Source: Pseudomonas lurida (lineage in GTDB: Bacteria; Pseudomonadota; Gammaproteobacteria; Pseudomonadales; Pseudomonadaceae). Taken from it: a DNA stretch of 64,000 nucleotides. The DNA is taken from positions 2,339,501-2,403,500 of the forward strand of contig NZ_PDJB01000001.1 in assembly GCF_002563895.1 (NCBI RefSeq), given 5' to 3'. Position 1 is the first letter of the stretch, and every line of letters begins with the position of its first letter. Position numbers and translations under genes: made by a program. The notes under the pieces were generated by a model. That model saw nothing but the letters and a program-made list of their open reading frames with translations. It had not been told where the DNA came from and ran no database searches. Positions 35,263 through 58,159 of the stretch are shown here, one piece after another.

Positions 35263-36762
35263 ATGACAACAACGATCGAGCACTACATCAACGACCAGCG
35301 CGTGTCCCGTGATGACCGCTATCAGGACGTCTACAACCCGGCCACCGGCGAAAAAACCGGCCGCGTGGCCTTGGCCAGCCGCCAGACCGTCGCCGAAGCC
35401 GTCGCCGCTGCCCAGGCCGCCTTCGCCGGTTGGGCCGACACCCCGCCAATCCGCCGTGCCCGCGTGCTGTTCGAATACCTGCACCTGCTGCGTGAGCGCA
35501 AGGACGACTTGGCGCGCATCATCGTGGCTGAACATGGCAAGGTCTTCACCGATGCCCAGGGCGAAGTCGACCGCGGCATCGACATCCTCGAATTCGCTTG
35601 CGGCATCCCGAACCTACTCAAGGGCGAGCACTCCGACCAGGTCTCCCGTGGCATGGACAACTGGACAATGCGCCAGCCGCTGGGCGTGGTAGCCGGCGTT
35701 ACACCGTTCAACTTCCCGGTGATGGTGCCCATGTGGATGTACCCGATCGCCATCGCGGCTGGCAACACCTTCATCCTCAAGCCAAGCCCGACCGACCCAA
35801 GCGCCTCGCTGTTCATGGCCGAACTGCTGCGTGAAGCCGGCTTGCCCAAAGGCGTGTTCAACGTGGTGCAGGGCGACAAGGAATCGGTGGATGCATTAAT
35901 CGAGCACCCCGACGTCAAGGCGGTGAGCTTCGTCGGGTCCACACCGATTGCCCAGTACATCTACGAAACCGGCGCCCGTCACGGCAAGCGCGTGCAAGGC
36001 CTGGGCGGCGCGAAGAACCACATGGTGGTGATGCCCGACGCGGATATCGAAAAAACCGTCGACGCCCTGATGGGCGCTGCCTACGGCAGTGCCGGCGAAC
36101 GTTGCATGGCCATCTCCGTGGCGGTGCTGGTGGGCGATGTAGGTGACAAAGTCATCGCCGCCCTGACCGAACGCGCCCAGCAACTGCGCATCACCGACGG
36201 CCGCGACCTCAAGGCCGAGATGGGCCCGATCGTGTCCCGTGCGGCGCTGGAGCGCATCAGCGGCTACATCGAACAAGGCGTGCAAGCCGGCGCGCAATTG
36301 CTGCTCGACGGACGTGATTACGTGCCCACCGAACCGGGCCTGGAAAACGGCTTCTGGCTGGGCGCGACGTTATTCGACCACGTGACCAAAGAGATGAGCA
36401 TCTACCGCGAAGAAATCTTCGGCCCGGTGCTGGCCTGCGTGCGCGTGACCGACTTCGCCGAAGCGATAAAATTGGTCAACGACCATGAGTTCGGCAACGG
36501 CGTGAGCTGCTTCACCCGCGACGGCAACATCGCCCGTGAATTTGCACGCCGGATCGAAGTGGGCATGGTTGGGATCAACGTGCCGATCCCGGTGCCGATG
36601 GCGTGGCACGGGTTTGGGGGCTGGAAGAAGAGCCTGTTTGGCGACATGCACGCCTACGGCACTGAAGGCGTGCGCTTCTACACCAAGCAAAAGTCGATCA
36701 TGCAGCGCTGGTCGGAAAGCATCGAGCAAGGCGCCGAGTTTGCGATGCCGGTGTCCAAGTAA
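35263..36762 (+). CDS. mmsA: CoA-acylating methylmalonate-semialdehyde dehydrogenase
   Basis: 499-residue aldehyde dehydrogenase superfamily member. NAD-binding [29 protein letters not shown] (about residues 145-175), [29 protein letters not shown], and the catalytic Cys in [14 protein letters not shown] (about residue 284). The GERCM and AKNH motifs mark the methylmalonate/malonate-semialdehyde branch, which oxidises its substrate with CoA to propionyl-CoA or acetyl-CoA (valine and beta-alanine breakdown). A divergent LysR gene lies upstream. Oddity: the last six codons and the stop (GATGCCGGTGTCCAAGTAA, from 36744) are repeated three more times downstream as part of a tandem array. Confidence 0.94.
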
Positions 36763-37439
36763 CCCAAGGTTGTAGGCGATCGAAGGTGGGAGCGGGCTTG
36801 CCCGCGATGGGAGGGTGTCAGTCGACCTGTTGGGCACTGATACACCGCCATCGCAGGCAAGCCAGCTCCCACATTTTTTCGCGTTCAGGCCTTGGCGTTT
36901 GTGGGCTTCAGGCGGTCGATGCCGGTGTCCAAGTAACCCAAGGTTGTAGGCGATCGAATGTGGGAGCGGGCTTGCCCGCGAAGGGGGCGTGTCAGTCGAC
37001 CTGTTGGGCACTGATACACCGCCATCGCAGGCAAGCCAGCTCCCACATTTTTTCGCGTTCAGGCCTTGGCGTTTGTGGGCTTCAGGCGGTCGATGCCGGT
37101 GTCCAAGTAACCCAAGGTTGTAGGCGATCGAAGGTGGGAGCGGGCTTGCCCGCGAAGGGGGTGTGCCAGTCGACCTGTTGGGCACTGATACACCGCCATC
37201 GCAGGCAAGCCAGCTCCCACATTTTTTCGCGTTCAGGCGGTGGTGCGTGTGGGCTTCAGGCGGTCGATGCCGGTGTCCAAGTAACCCAAGGTTGTAGGCG
37301 ATCGAAGGTGGGAGCGGGCTTGCCCGCGAAGGGGGCGTGTCAGTCGACCTGTTGGGCACTGATACACCGCCATCGCAAGCAAACCAGCTCCCACAATTTT
37401 TATCGCATTCAGGCGCTGGTGTGTGTGGGCTTCAGGCAA
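36744..37439. repeat. Four-copy 174-bp tandem repeat carrying the mmsA 3' end and a REP pair
   Basis: Copies start at 36744, 36918, 37092 and 37266, exactly 174 bp apart, and differ at only a few positions. Each copy contains GATGCCGGTGTCCAAGTAA (the end of mmsA including the stop), then GTGGGAGCGGGCTTGCCCGC, a spacer with CAGTCGACCTGTTGGGCACTG, and the inverse REP GCAAGCCAGCTCCCAC. The first copy is the real mmsA end. The sequence after the fourth copy reads AAATGCC where the unit begins GATGCC, so ATGCC microhomology may have seeded the duplication. The unit is a multiple of three, and long spurious frames cross it. Confidence 0.95.
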
Positions 37440-54560: not shown

Positions 54561-56687
54561 ATGCGTCGTACTGTGCTGTCCGTGTGTGTGCTTCAGGCGT
54601 TTTCCCCGTTGAGTTGGGCGCAGGTCGAGCCAGTTGAGAAAGCCTCCATCGAACTGCAAACCACCAGCGTCACCGGCGCTGCCGACTATGAAACCGCCCA
54701 GGGGCCAGTGCAGGGCTACCACGCCACGCGCTCCGCGAGTGCGACGCGCACCGATACCTCGATCCATGAAACGCCGCAGTCCATCACCGTGGTCTCCAAA
54801 GACGTGGTCGAGGACATGAGTGCGACCCGCCTGCAGGATGCACTCGACTACGCGGGCGGCGTGGGCCGGGCGAACAACTTCGGCGGGCAGGGGTTGACCA
54901 CCTTCACCGTGCGCGGCTTTACCACCGGCGAGTTCTACCGCAATGGTTTCCCGATCAACCGTGGCTACCCGAACATGCCCGACGCCAACACCCTCGAGCG
55001 CCTGGAAGTGCTGCGCGGCCCGGCGACCATGCTCTACGGCCGTGGTGACCCCGGTGGCACCTTCAACGTGGTGTCCAAGCAACCGCTGGCCGAGCCGACG
55101 GTGACCCTCGGCAGCCAATTGGATAACCAGGGCATGCAGCGCGCGACCCTCGACGCGTCTGGCCCGCTGGACGAGCAAGGTCGCCTGGCGTATCGCCTGA
55201 ACGTGGTGGGCGAGGGCGGCGACACCTTCCGTGATCATGTGGAAACCGAACGCTACGGCGTGACGCCGGTGCTCACCTGGCAAGCCACCGACGACACCAA
55301 GGTGATCTTCGAGGGCGACTTCATGCGCAATAACCATCCGCTGGACCGTGGCTTGACGCGCTACCCGAACCAGAAAGGCACGCCTTCGCGCGACACCTTC
55401 TGGGGCGAGCCAGACGTCGGCAAATTGCACAACGACAACAGCATGGCCCAGCTGCGTTTCGAACACCTGCTCAATGACAATTGGACCTTGGGCGGCGGCT
55501 TCCAATGGCTGGACGGCACGCTGCAAGGCAACGCCATCGAAGCCAATGGCCTGGCCGCTGACGGTCGCACATTGGGCCGCAACTTCAACTACCGCAAGCT
55601 GGAGTGGACCGACAAAGACACCCAGCTCAACCTCACCGGGCACTTTTCCACAGCCGGCTTGGACCACACGTTACTCACCGGCGTCGAGTTCGAAGACTAC
55701 GACTACACGTCGATCATCCAGCGCTCCAGCGGCGCGGTGGGCGCGTATGCCATCGACATCTTCAACCCGGCCTACGGCCAGGCGCGCCCGGCGCTCACGC
55801 GCACGCCAACCCATGACAAGGAAAACCTCAAGACCTACGCCGCGTTCGTCCAGGACCAGGTGGCGCTCACCGAGCGTCTCAAAGTCCTGGCAGGCGCACG
55901 CTTGGAACGCTTCGAGCACGACTACCGCACCTATGTGCCAGGCGGGAAAAGCTGGAATGCCAGCGACAATGCGGTGACCCCGCGCGTCGGCGTGATCTAT
56001 GACCTTACCGACACCGTCGCGGTGTATGCCGACGCTGCGCGCTCGTTCAAGCCCAATACCGGTGCCAGCCGCCAGGGCGGCGGTTTTGCGCCGGAGAAAG
56101 GCAAGTCCTACGAGATGGGCATCAAGTGGGAGGCCTTCGATCGCCAGTTGAGCGTTGATGCGGCGATCTATCAGATCGAAAAGGAAAACGTGCTCACCAC
56201 CGACCCCGTGGACTCCACCTTCAGCGTCGCCGCTGGCCAGGTACGCAGCCGAGGCCTGGACCTGAATGTGGCAGGCAACATCACCCCGCAGTGGCGCGTG
56301 ATCGGTGGGTATGCCTACGTCGACGCCGAAGTCACCAAGGACAATACCCTGCGCACGGGCACGCGCTTGTTGAACATTCCGCGCAACAGCTTCAGCTTGC
56401 TCAACGTCTATGAATTCCAGGACGGCGCACTCAAAGGCCTGGGCCTGGGGGCGGGCGGCAAATACGTGGATGAGCGCGCAGGGCAGACGTCCAACACTGC
56501 CTTCTCGATGGATGCCTACACCGTGGTCGACCTGCTCGGCTACTACAAGGTCAACGACAAACTGCGGCTGAACCTGGATGTGAAGAATGTGTTCAACCGC
56601 GAGTATGAAGAAGGTGCGTTCGGTAATGTGTATGCCTACCCGGGCGAGCCCCGCACAGTCCAGGTCGGGATCGCCTACACGCTGTAA
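54561..56687 (+). CDS. TonB-dependent siderophore receptor
   Basis: 708-residue outer-membrane receptor. A short signal peptide (RRTVLSVCVLQAFSPLSWAQ, residues 2-21), then the plug domain (about 50-165: ETPQSITVVSKDVVEDMSATRLQDALDYAGGV, FTVRGFTTGEFYRNGFPINRG, LERLEVLRGPATMLYGRGDPGGTFNVVSK), then a 22-strand barrel ending NREYEEGAFGNVYAYPGEPRTVQVGIAYTL. It belongs to the ferric-hydroxamate type (FiuA/FoxA/FhuA-like) by its general look; the exact siderophore is unknown. No N-terminal signalling extension, no sigma/anti-sigma genes nearby. Fur control is suggested by the upstream site. Oddity: its last about 30 codons, from 56595, are copied twice more downstream in a tandem array. Confidence 0.93.
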   Translation: MRRTVLSVCVLQAFSPLSWAQVEPVEKASIELQTTSVTGAADYETAQGPVQGYHATRSASATRTDTSIHETPQSITVVSKDVVEDMSATRLQDALDYAGGVGRANNFGGQGLTTFTVRGFTTGEFYRNGFPINRGYPNMPDANTLERLEVLRGPATMLYGRGDPGGTFNVVSKQPLAEPTVTLGSQLDNQGMQRATLDASGPLDEQGRLAYRLNVVGEGGDTFRDHVETERYGVTPVLTWQATDDTKVIFEGDFMRNNHPLDRGLTRYPNQKGTPSRDTFWGEPDVGKLHNDNSMAQLRFEHLLNDNWTLGGGFQWLDGTLQGNAIEANGLAADGRTLGRNFNYRKLEWTDKDTQLNLTGHFSTAGLDHTLLTGVEFEDYDYTSIIQRSSGAVGAYAIDIFNPAYGQARPALTRTPTHDKENLKTYAAFVQDQVALTERLKVLAGARLERFEHDYRTYVPGGKSWNASDNAVTPRVGVIYDLTDTVAVYADAARSFKPNTGASRQGGGFAPEKGKSYEMGIKWEAFDRQLSVDAAIYQIEKENVLTTDPVDSTFSVAAGQVRSRGLDLNVAGNITPQWRVIGGYAYVDAEVTKDNTLRTGTRLLNIPRNSFSLLNVYEFQDGALKGLGLGAGGKYVDERAGQTSNTAFSMDAYTVVDLLGYYKVNDKLRLNLDVKNVFNREYEEGAFGNVYAYPGEPRTVQVGIAYTL

Positions 56688-57430
56688 CGGCGTACACAGG
56701 TAAACCGGTGGGAGCGGGCTTGCCCGCGAATGCTGAGTGTCAGTCGCTGGATGTTCTGGCTGACACAGCGCATTCGCGGGCAAGCCCGCTCCCACATTTG
56801 AATGGGTTTGCACTTGATCAAGTGTGGTTGCCGGGCAGGAGGTCAGAGCGGCGTGAGTACGTTCATTACCGTATCCAGCGCCACAACCGCGAGTATGAAG
56901 AGGGTGGCCTACCCAGGCGAACCCCGCACAGTCCAGGTCGGGATCGCCTACACGCTATAACAGGGTACACAGGTAAACCTGTGGGAGCGGGCTTGCCCGC
57001 GAATGCTGAGTGTCAGTCGCTGGATGTTCTGGATGACACAGCGCATTCGCGGGCAAGCCCGCTCCCACATTTGAATGGGTTTGCACCTGATAAAGCGTGG
57101 TTGCCGGGCAGGAGGTCAGAGCGGCGTGAGTACATTCATTACCGTATCCAGCGCCACAACCGCGAGTATGAAGAGGGTGGCCTACCCGGGCGAGCCCCGC
57201 ACAGTCCAGGTCGGGATCGCCTACACGCTGTAACGGCGTACACAGCTAAACCTGTGGGAGCGGGCTTGCCCGCGAATGCTGAGTGTCAGTCGCTGGATGT
57301 TCTGGATGACACAGCGCATTCGCGGGCAAGCCCGCTCCCACATTTGAATGGGTTTGCACCTGATAAAGCGTGGTTGCCGGGCAGGAGGTCAGAGCGGCGT
57401 GAGCACATTCATTACCGTATCCAGCGCCAC
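56595..57430. repeat. Three-copy 273-bp tandem repeat carrying the 3' ends of both flanking genes
   Basis: Copies run 56595-56884 (290 bp), 56885-57157 and 57158-57430 (273 bp each). Each has, in order, the 3' end of the TonB receptor gene (from AACCGCGAGTATGAAG through CACGCTGTAA), a REP pair with spacer (GTGGGAGCGGGCTTGCCCGCGAATGC ... inverse), and the 3' end of the minus-strand GntR gene (GGAGGTCAGAGCGGCGTGAG ... CAGCGCCAC). Copies 2 and 3 share a 17-bp deletion in the receptor part relative to copy 1, which is the true receptor end; copy 3 contains the true GntR end. The junction is CGCCAC/AACCGCG. Confidence 0.95.
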
Positions 57431-58111
57431 CCGCGTGTCATCCAACTGCACCAGCGACGCATGCCGCGCCCCAAGGGCATCGCGGTTCTGGATCGCGGTG
57501 AGGATCGCCTTGTGCCGAGGCAGGCTCAGGCCCTGAATGTCCGGGCGGCGGTTGGTGATGTTGATCGACTCGCGCAATGGCAGCGACAGCATGTTGCACA
57601 TATAGGCCAGCAGGTCGTTGCGGGTGGCATCGGCAATGGCGCGGTGGAAGTCCAGGTCAGCCTGTAGCAGTTGTTCGTGGGTCTGTGCGGTTTCCATGCC
57701 CAGGTAGGCTTTCTCGATGGTGGCGATGTCTTCATCGGTGGCGGTGGTCGCGGCCATGGCGGCGATTTCCGGTTCGAGGATGCGCCGTACCCCGGCCAGT
57801 GTGTTGAAGAACTCGCTGTGCGGCGTGGACTGCATCAACCAGGACAGCACGTCCGGGTCGAGCAGGTGCCACTTCAACCGAGGCCGCACCACCGCGCCTA
57901 CGCGGGGCTTGGAATACACCAGGCCCTTGGCGCTAAGTACCCGCGTGGCCTCACGCAGCACCGAGCGACTGACCTTGTACTCCTCGCAGAGCGTGGCCTC
58001 CATGGGCAGCCGTTCTTCGGGCTTGAAGCGACCGGAAACGATGTGCATGCCCAAGTCCTGGACGATCTGGGCATGCTGGCTCTTGCGCGGCTTGGGCGGC
58101 TGGTGATCCAT
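57389..58111 (-). CDS. GntR (FadR subfamily) regulator of pentonate catabolism
   Basis: 240-residue regulator. A winged HTH lies at about residues 10-75 (AQIVQDLGMHIVSGRFKPEERLPMEATLCEEYKVSRSVLREATRVLSAKGLVYSKPRVGAVV), followed by an FCD all-helical ligand domain with metal/ligand-type His (LDFHRAIADATRN and LPRHKAILTAIQNRD). Start MDHQPPKPRK at 58111; a longer frame up to the dehydratase stop is possible but less likely. It is 48 bases downstream of the dehydratase on the same strand. Two perfect TNGTNNNACNA sites, the FadR-subfamily consensus, lie between the dehydratase and MFS genes. The 3' end of this gene is triplicated in the adjacent array. Confidence 0.92.
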   Translation of the reverse strand: MDHQPPKPRKSQHAQIVQDLGMHIVSGRFKPEERLPMEATLCEEYKVSRSVLREATRVLSAKGLVYSKPRVGAVVRPRLKWHLLDPDVLSWLMQSTPHSEFFNTLAGVRRILEPEIAAMAATTATDEDIATIEKAYLGMETAQTHEQLLQADLDFHRAIADATRNDLLAYMCNMLSLPLRESINITNRRPDIQGLSLPRHKAILTAIQNRDALGARHASLVQLDDTRVALDTVMNVLTPL

Positions 58112-58159
58112 GACTACGGGGAGGCTCTGGCTTGAATTCGCAGCATCATAGCATCCCAA

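Follow-up and report, generated by a model that had tools for sequence, protein, structure and literature searches.

A tandem REPIN array carrying the 3' ends of two convergent genes in Pseudomonas lurida

We analysed a window of 64,000 nucleotides from Pseudomonas lurida (C1:2339501-2403500 of the genome here called G000, whose assembly is one contig of 6,311,648 bp with a completeness of 100). Between a TonB-dependent receptor gene (tonB) and a convergent gene for a GntR-family regulator (gntR), positions 56594-57429 of the window consist of three head-to-tail units of 290, 273 and 273 bp. Each unit contains the 3' end of tonB, an 89-nt pair of inverted repetitive extragenic palindromic sequences (REPs) that forms a hairpin (REP doublet forming hairpin, REPIN), and the final 41 nt of the opposing gntR. 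The question raised by this locus is how a whole gene junction came to be repeated with both genes left intact. Our answer, to which we give a probability of roughly three in four, is that the array is a REPIN tandem cluster in which the DNA metabolism of the host duplicated a mobile hairpin at a convergent junction along with the sequence on either side, with no new element involved.

The repeated junction

Tandem Repeats Finder (TRF) assigned the array a period of 273 bp with 2.9 copies and 96% matches, and a repeat search agreed on three copies at a spacing of 273. According to the repeat search and the alignment, copy 1 (56594-56883, 290 bp) comprises the working tonB end, a REPIN (56708-56796, located by its inverted repeat and fold) and a vestigial gntR end. 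Copy 2 (56884-57156, 273 bp) has a vestigial tonB end, a REPIN (56981-57069) and a vestigial gntR end, and copy 3 (57157-57429, 273 bp) has a vestigial tonB end, a REPIN (57254-57342) and the working gntR end. The tonB end covers the final 94 nt of the gene in copy 1 and 77 nt in copies 2 and 3, from which 17 nt present only in copy 1 (56617-56633) are missing. The units abut directly, without an unrepeated spacer. The working genes are completed by the outermost copies, tonB by copy 1 and gntR by copy 3, and the inner gene ends are vestiges. Pairwise identity among the three copies was 91-96%, far beyond chance, and the array has near-identical REPINs in tandem with their flanks, as is typical of REPIN tandem clusters.

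The two genes were identified from their open reading frames and Pfam domains. The receptor gene (54561-56687, plus strand) matched PF00593 (1.7e-68) and PF07715 (7.5e-22); its stop lies at 56687 and its last 94 nt are the left end of copy 1. The regulator gene, of the FCD type (57389-58159, minus strand), matched PF07729 (1e-22) and PF00392 (8.7e-18), and its last 41 nt are the right end of copy 3.

A prediction made earlier for this locus (the original prediction) had described a three-copy array of 273 bp, and TRF, the repeat search and the alignment all found it to be real, with limits that differ by one base (56594 instead of 56595) due to a 1-nt ambiguity at the join. It had also interpreted each unit as a copy of the entire convergent junction (receptor end, REP pair and gntR end), which was borne out by the reading frames, the Pfam matches and the inverted repeat. 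To call the duplication exact was too strong, as in ungapped comparison the copies differed at 12 (copies 1 and 2), 9 (1 and 3) and 7 (2 and 3) of 273 positions. An assembly error, which the prediction had named as grounds for its own rejection, or a collapsed or expanded repeat, could be suspected in that short hairpin repeats are hard to assemble. However, the copies differ at 14 columns and by the 17-nt deletion, and they lie in a single 6.31-Mb contig, which makes an artefact of this kind very improbable.

The novel join of gntR end to tonB end (56874-56893) was defined by comparing the parental with the joined sequences. Its sequence is the same at both unit boundaries, the second lying around 57156/57157, and one base, the 1-nt overlap, can be assigned to either parent. 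The joins are located inside the coding ends, at a distance from the REPIN of 87 nt on the right and of 97 or 114 nt on the left (without or with the 17 nt). Homologous recombination between REPs was rejected as the first event because the joins fall outside the REPIN. The parental breakpoints are similar at 8 of 10 positions, but by eye this similarity is out of register with the join; it was discounted and only the 1-nt overlap was counted. A protein-coding repeat array was likewise considered and rejected. A frame of 319 amino acids is open (273 = 3 x 91), but its codon usage is non-coding (a score of -0.287 per codon for the part in the array, against +0.26 to +0.36 for three genes in the window), and it gave no Pfam match.

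The REP pair is an inverted repeat of 36 nt with 92% complementarity, corresponding to a hairpin of two inverted REPs. When positions 56700-56803 were folded as single-stranded DNA, the energy was -46.8 kcal/mol as compared to -17.5 kcal/mol for shuffled sequences (z -11.6). An Rfam scan of the region returned ten rows, with microRNA and Mg-riboswitch models placed on the hairpins; all scored below the gathering thresholds and were rejected as chance hairpin matches. The REPs form a dispersed family in this genome, with 332 forward and 324 reverse matches to a 22-mer pattern (at most 2 mismatches), 656 altogether, and 0 matches for the reversed-pattern controls.

Relationships among the three copies

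The history proposed in the original prediction was a duplication, a deletion in one copy and a re-amplification of that copy. The alignment confirmed that copies 2 and 3 have the 17-nt deletion in common, and the proposed order fits this deletion in outline. That the deletion alone shows a clean re-amplification of one copy, on the other hand, is not supported, as other sites disagree. At unit index 247, copies 1 and 2 have a derived T, and copy 3 has the C of all nine outgroups shown (9/9). At index 31, 37, 73, 78 and 80, copies 1 and 3 group together and copy 2 is private at all five sites. The polarised sites are thus in conflict, with the deletion grouping copies 2 and 3, the gntR site copies 1 and 2, and the tonB tract copies 1 and 3.

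We compared these sites with 31 outgroup loci. The sites at index 31 and 37 are G in copies 1 and 3 and A in copy 2. An A at both positions was found in the three closest receptor relatives (L031, L033 and L035, 87% identical over the preceding kilobase) and in L032; L036 has G and A, and L003 has A and G. Overall, A occurred in 18 of the 31 loci at index 31, and at index 37 it occurred in 10, with G as the commonest base (16 loci). For index 78 and 80 the outgroups suggest that it is copy 2 that has the derived state.

Unequal crossing-over with a hybrid middle copy and at least one exchange of a tract fits these patterns better than a clean re-amplification. A hybrid middle copy predicts both the deletion in copies 2 and 3 and the derived T in copies 1 and 2, and an exchanged tract is indicated because all five copy-2-specific sites fall within index 31-80. 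These five sites call either for such a tract or for five local mutations in copy 2, and the exchanged tract is preferred. The copies have diverged by 2.6-4.4% (7-12 of 273), whereas the gntR genes of the nearest relatives are about 93% identical. The array thus seems to postdate the separation from the sampled species, yet not to be brand new.

The steps that could have led to the array are as follows. Replication trouble at the hairpin with its 36-nt arms, either stalling or breakage with a template switch, may have resulted in an illegitimate, nearly homology-free join of a point 41 nt inside gntR to a point 94 nt inside tonB. This first event would have given two copies with both genes intact, since each outer copy completes one gene. 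Most simply, the illegitimate event would have occurred only once, because both joins are identical in sequence, and later changes would have proceeded via homology. Unequal crossing-over between the left and right copies would then have produced the third copy, so that the middle copy would be a hybrid with its left part from the right copy and its right part from the left copy, and further exchange would have followed. Gain and loss of array units are expected to be neutral, and beyond the added bidirectional hairpins between the genes we expect no dedicated function.

One further difference between the copies was noticed post hoc. At 56811-56824 a palindrome of 14 nt is perfect in copy 1 and imperfect, with three mismatched pairs, at the same place in copies 2 and 3. 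Copy 1 owes the perfect form to three substitutions in this short stretch; of 9828 random triple changes only 8 have this outcome, and the change looks like a quasipalindrome-templated mutation.

The junction in relatives and comparable arrays

The comparison set consisted of 80 receptor-encoding loci and 29 further loci of related genomes, two collections that may overlap in species. Receptor and gntR ends in the same arrangement within 4 kb were found at 31 loci, 22 of them with a gap of at most 420 nt; for one of the 31, L020, the similarity is only about 74%, and it is perhaps not orthologous. Repeated gene ends were found in none of these 31 other loci, and the only direct repeat of at least 30 nt was one of 46 nt at offset 72 in L064. 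An inverted REP pair was detected in 10 of the 31 gaps by pattern (at most 3 mismatches), several of them of other REP types by eye and L039 having an extra REP, and the same pattern gave no inverted pair in the other 21. The tonB/gntR gap thus holds a hairpin in several of the relatives, but an array was seen in G000 alone.

These data bear on selection, by which extra hairpins would be kept as insulators of the convergent genes through stronger bidirectional termination or protection of mRNA ends. The REPIN was less variable than its flanks, with 1 of the 14 variable columns in its 89 of 273 nt (p = 0.04), and the strong fold and the inverted REP pairs at this junction in other loci point in the same direction. 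The p value is marginal, however, and rests on 14 variable columns, the relatives lack the array, and most of their gaps lack the REP pair by the pattern used. We therefore regard selection as an improbable cause of the array.

We then surveyed the genome for long arrays, defined as tandem duplications with an offset of at least 100. We sampled 140 stretches of 20 kb within the first 5.52 Mb and added the window, which gave a total of 2.864 Mb out of 6.31 Mb; the last 0.8 Mb lies outside the sample. Genes were called with a simple codon-usage script, which makes their orientations approximate, and any gap with a REP match, single or paired, was counted as REP-bearing. Of the 228 REP-bearing intergenic gaps 5 held a long array, as compared to 4 of the 1298 remaining gaps (p = 0.005 in a one-sided Fisher test). 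All four arrays in REP-free gaps were retained in the test; L132 and L220 resemble duplicated tRNA genes by eye, L197 carries another palindrome family, and the 6-kb gap around L225 is possibly a missed gene. Convergent gaps are a frequent place for REPIN loci, as they contained 37 of the 86 loci and make up 277 of the 1535 gaps overall.

In addition to the tonB/gntR array, the sample contains three arrays that are situated between convergent genes and have a repeat beginning within the end of a gene. The first is a REPIN array of 4 x 174 bp in the window (36743-37437) between an aldehyde-dehydrogenase gene and a permease gene, with a unit starting 20 nt inside the aldehyde-dehydrogenase gene end. 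A search for its orthologs in 34 genomes gave no conserved junction among the matches listed, and in the genomes G004 and G017 its two genes are kilobases apart. The second (L122:1791-2108) is an array of 3 x 105 with three plus-strand REPs and one minus-strand REP. The third (L211:3376-3906, G000:3787376) has two copies at offset 301 between an HlyD-family gene and an FAD/NAD-binding gene. Its unit covers both gene ends, taking in 80 nt on the HlyD side and, if the lost part is included, about 196 nt of the gene opposite. The inner vestigial FAD-gene end lacks 79 nt found in the working copy, decay of the kind also seen with the 17-nt deletion in the tonB/gntR array.

The HlyD/FAD junction was searched in 57 genomes, and the matches in relatives were considered; RAYT (REP-associated tyrosine transposase) genes, with the NF047646 profile, and REPs were also searched in 57 genomes, from which the 29 further loci above were drawn as well. 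In another species (G004) the orthologous junction carries an array (L271:337-1715) of 3.0 x 460 bp with a different REP type. Its left breakpoint falls 318 nt within the HlyD gene, and by eye it includes roughly the final 20 nt of the gene opposite. Because both breakpoints and REP types differ, the arrays of G000 and G004 are likely to have arisen independently. The junction is single-copy in G017, with a gap of 4 bp between the matches. The original prediction had also said that an absence of comparable arrays elsewhere would refute it; such arrays were found both in the same genome and in another species.

Other repeats were seen in the survey. The L197 array (L197:13801-14270) has 2.5 copies of 180 bp, and the arms of its palindrome are unlike the REP patterns used. 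Eleven same-strand REP arrays with a spacing of about 72-74 bp were found in the sampled 45% of the genome (L130, L149, L152, L169, L170, L171, L173, L176, L207, L212 and L254). An array of 2.9 copies of 170 bp (L183:7042-7532) was set aside as a different class, as its unit, which was also searched in 34 genomes, has relatives elsewhere in this genome. These lie at G000:3351177-3352438, 1243654-1244434, 3622168-3622737 and 4016688-4017290, where overlapping matches suggest further tandem arrays.

A RAYT that nicked at REPINs and produced the tandem copies would be another explanation. REPINs are reported to be duplicated by RAYTs (PMC8049555), and in Pseudomonas fluorescens SBW25 each of three RAYTs adjoins a REPIN cluster (PMC3116915). 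Against this, the joins here are in coding ends 87-114 nt from the REPIN and not at REPs, and no RAYT was found in G000 with the PF01797 and NF047646 profiles or with the RAYT proteins of two relatives. NF047646 matched (E <= 0.001) in 34 of 35 other genomes of the genus, although the matches of G003 and G013 did not reach the curated cut-off. The lone exception, G015, has 4 REP matches, and all 25 other genomes with at least 50 REP matches had a RAYT match; PF01797 was present in 15 of 18 relatives. The REPIN population with its 656 matches seems to have outlived its transposase, and the loss of a RAYT may postdate the array, so its absence weakens a RAYT role and does no more. Taken with the position of the joins, we consider this origin unlikely.

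Duplication of the hairpin and its flanks by host DNA metabolism is the reading we prefer, and several points weigh against it. The causal role of the hairpin is deduced from association, and the change in copy number comes from comparing copies within one strain of the species, not from observation of the event. When convergent gaps alone were considered, the enrichment of long arrays was weaker (4 of 104 as compared to 1 of 171, p = 0.07). The lower variability of the REPIN could mean selection on the hairpin. Finally, ordinary mutation instead of exchange could account for the five private sites of copy 2, which has A at four of them where copies 1 and 3 have G; this is conceivable given the prevalence of G at index 37 and the apparently derived state of copy 2 at index 78 and 80.

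A wider proposal is more doubtful and is put forward only tentatively. REPIN hairpins between convergent genes might be hot spots where illegitimate tandem duplication occurs again and again, copying both 3' ends without a RAYT and hitting the same junction independently across species, as at the HlyD/FAD-binding-protein junction with its offsets of 301 and 460 bp and different REP types. The vestigial gene ends would then record the process.

Relation to known REPIN clusters

The tonB/gntR array belongs to the known REPIN clusters that are repeated with their flanks. In P. fluorescens SBW25, 16 ordered clusters have been described as tandem REPIN repeats "including the flanking sequences", with a unit of a flank f1, the REPIN and a shorter flank f2; units are 'usually' separated by a short unrepeated stretch, which is not a defining feature (Bertels and Rainey 2011, PMC3116915). 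The array resembles these clusters in its tandem REPINs with flanks and, by eye, in the general type of its REP. It differs in that the flanks enter the coding ends of both convergent genes, the units abut and no RAYT was found. The main text of that paper contains neither 'convergent' nor 'recombination', and its relevant passages are silent on gene ends, on joins and on any exchange among copies. Tandem REPIN clusters of Escherichia coli are gained and lost locally, and in a mutation-accumulation line a cluster of six lost five copies (PMC8049555). These are also tandem local copies, but gene ends in the units are not described in the relevant parts of that paper. A literature search by title and the start of the abstract found no work on REPIN arrays carrying convergent gene ends.

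Chromosomal duplications mediated by REPs, with REP-REP joins, were reportedly described by Shyamala et al. in 1990. REPs and tandem duplication are common to both cases, whereas the joins there are reportedly in the REPs and here are outside the REPIN in coding sequence. In yeast, several types of tandem array of the CUP1 locus have been attributed to unequal non-homologous recombination (PMC4232551). Unlike the tonB/gntR array, this is a eukaryotic gene for a copper-binding protein, and the relevant parts of the paper mention no hairpin element.

What this case adds is the presence of both convergent gene ends in the unit, the near-homology-free join, the evidence of exchange between copies and the recurrence at one junction in two species. 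In the literature covered, the formation of the catalogued REPIN clusters is apparently not settled. Units that enter coding sequence provide a fixed reference in the working gene ends, from which joins, decay and exchange can be read. Together with the recurrence at an orthologous junction, a REPIN-rich genome with no detectable RAYT can be used to test whether local amplification needs the transposase.
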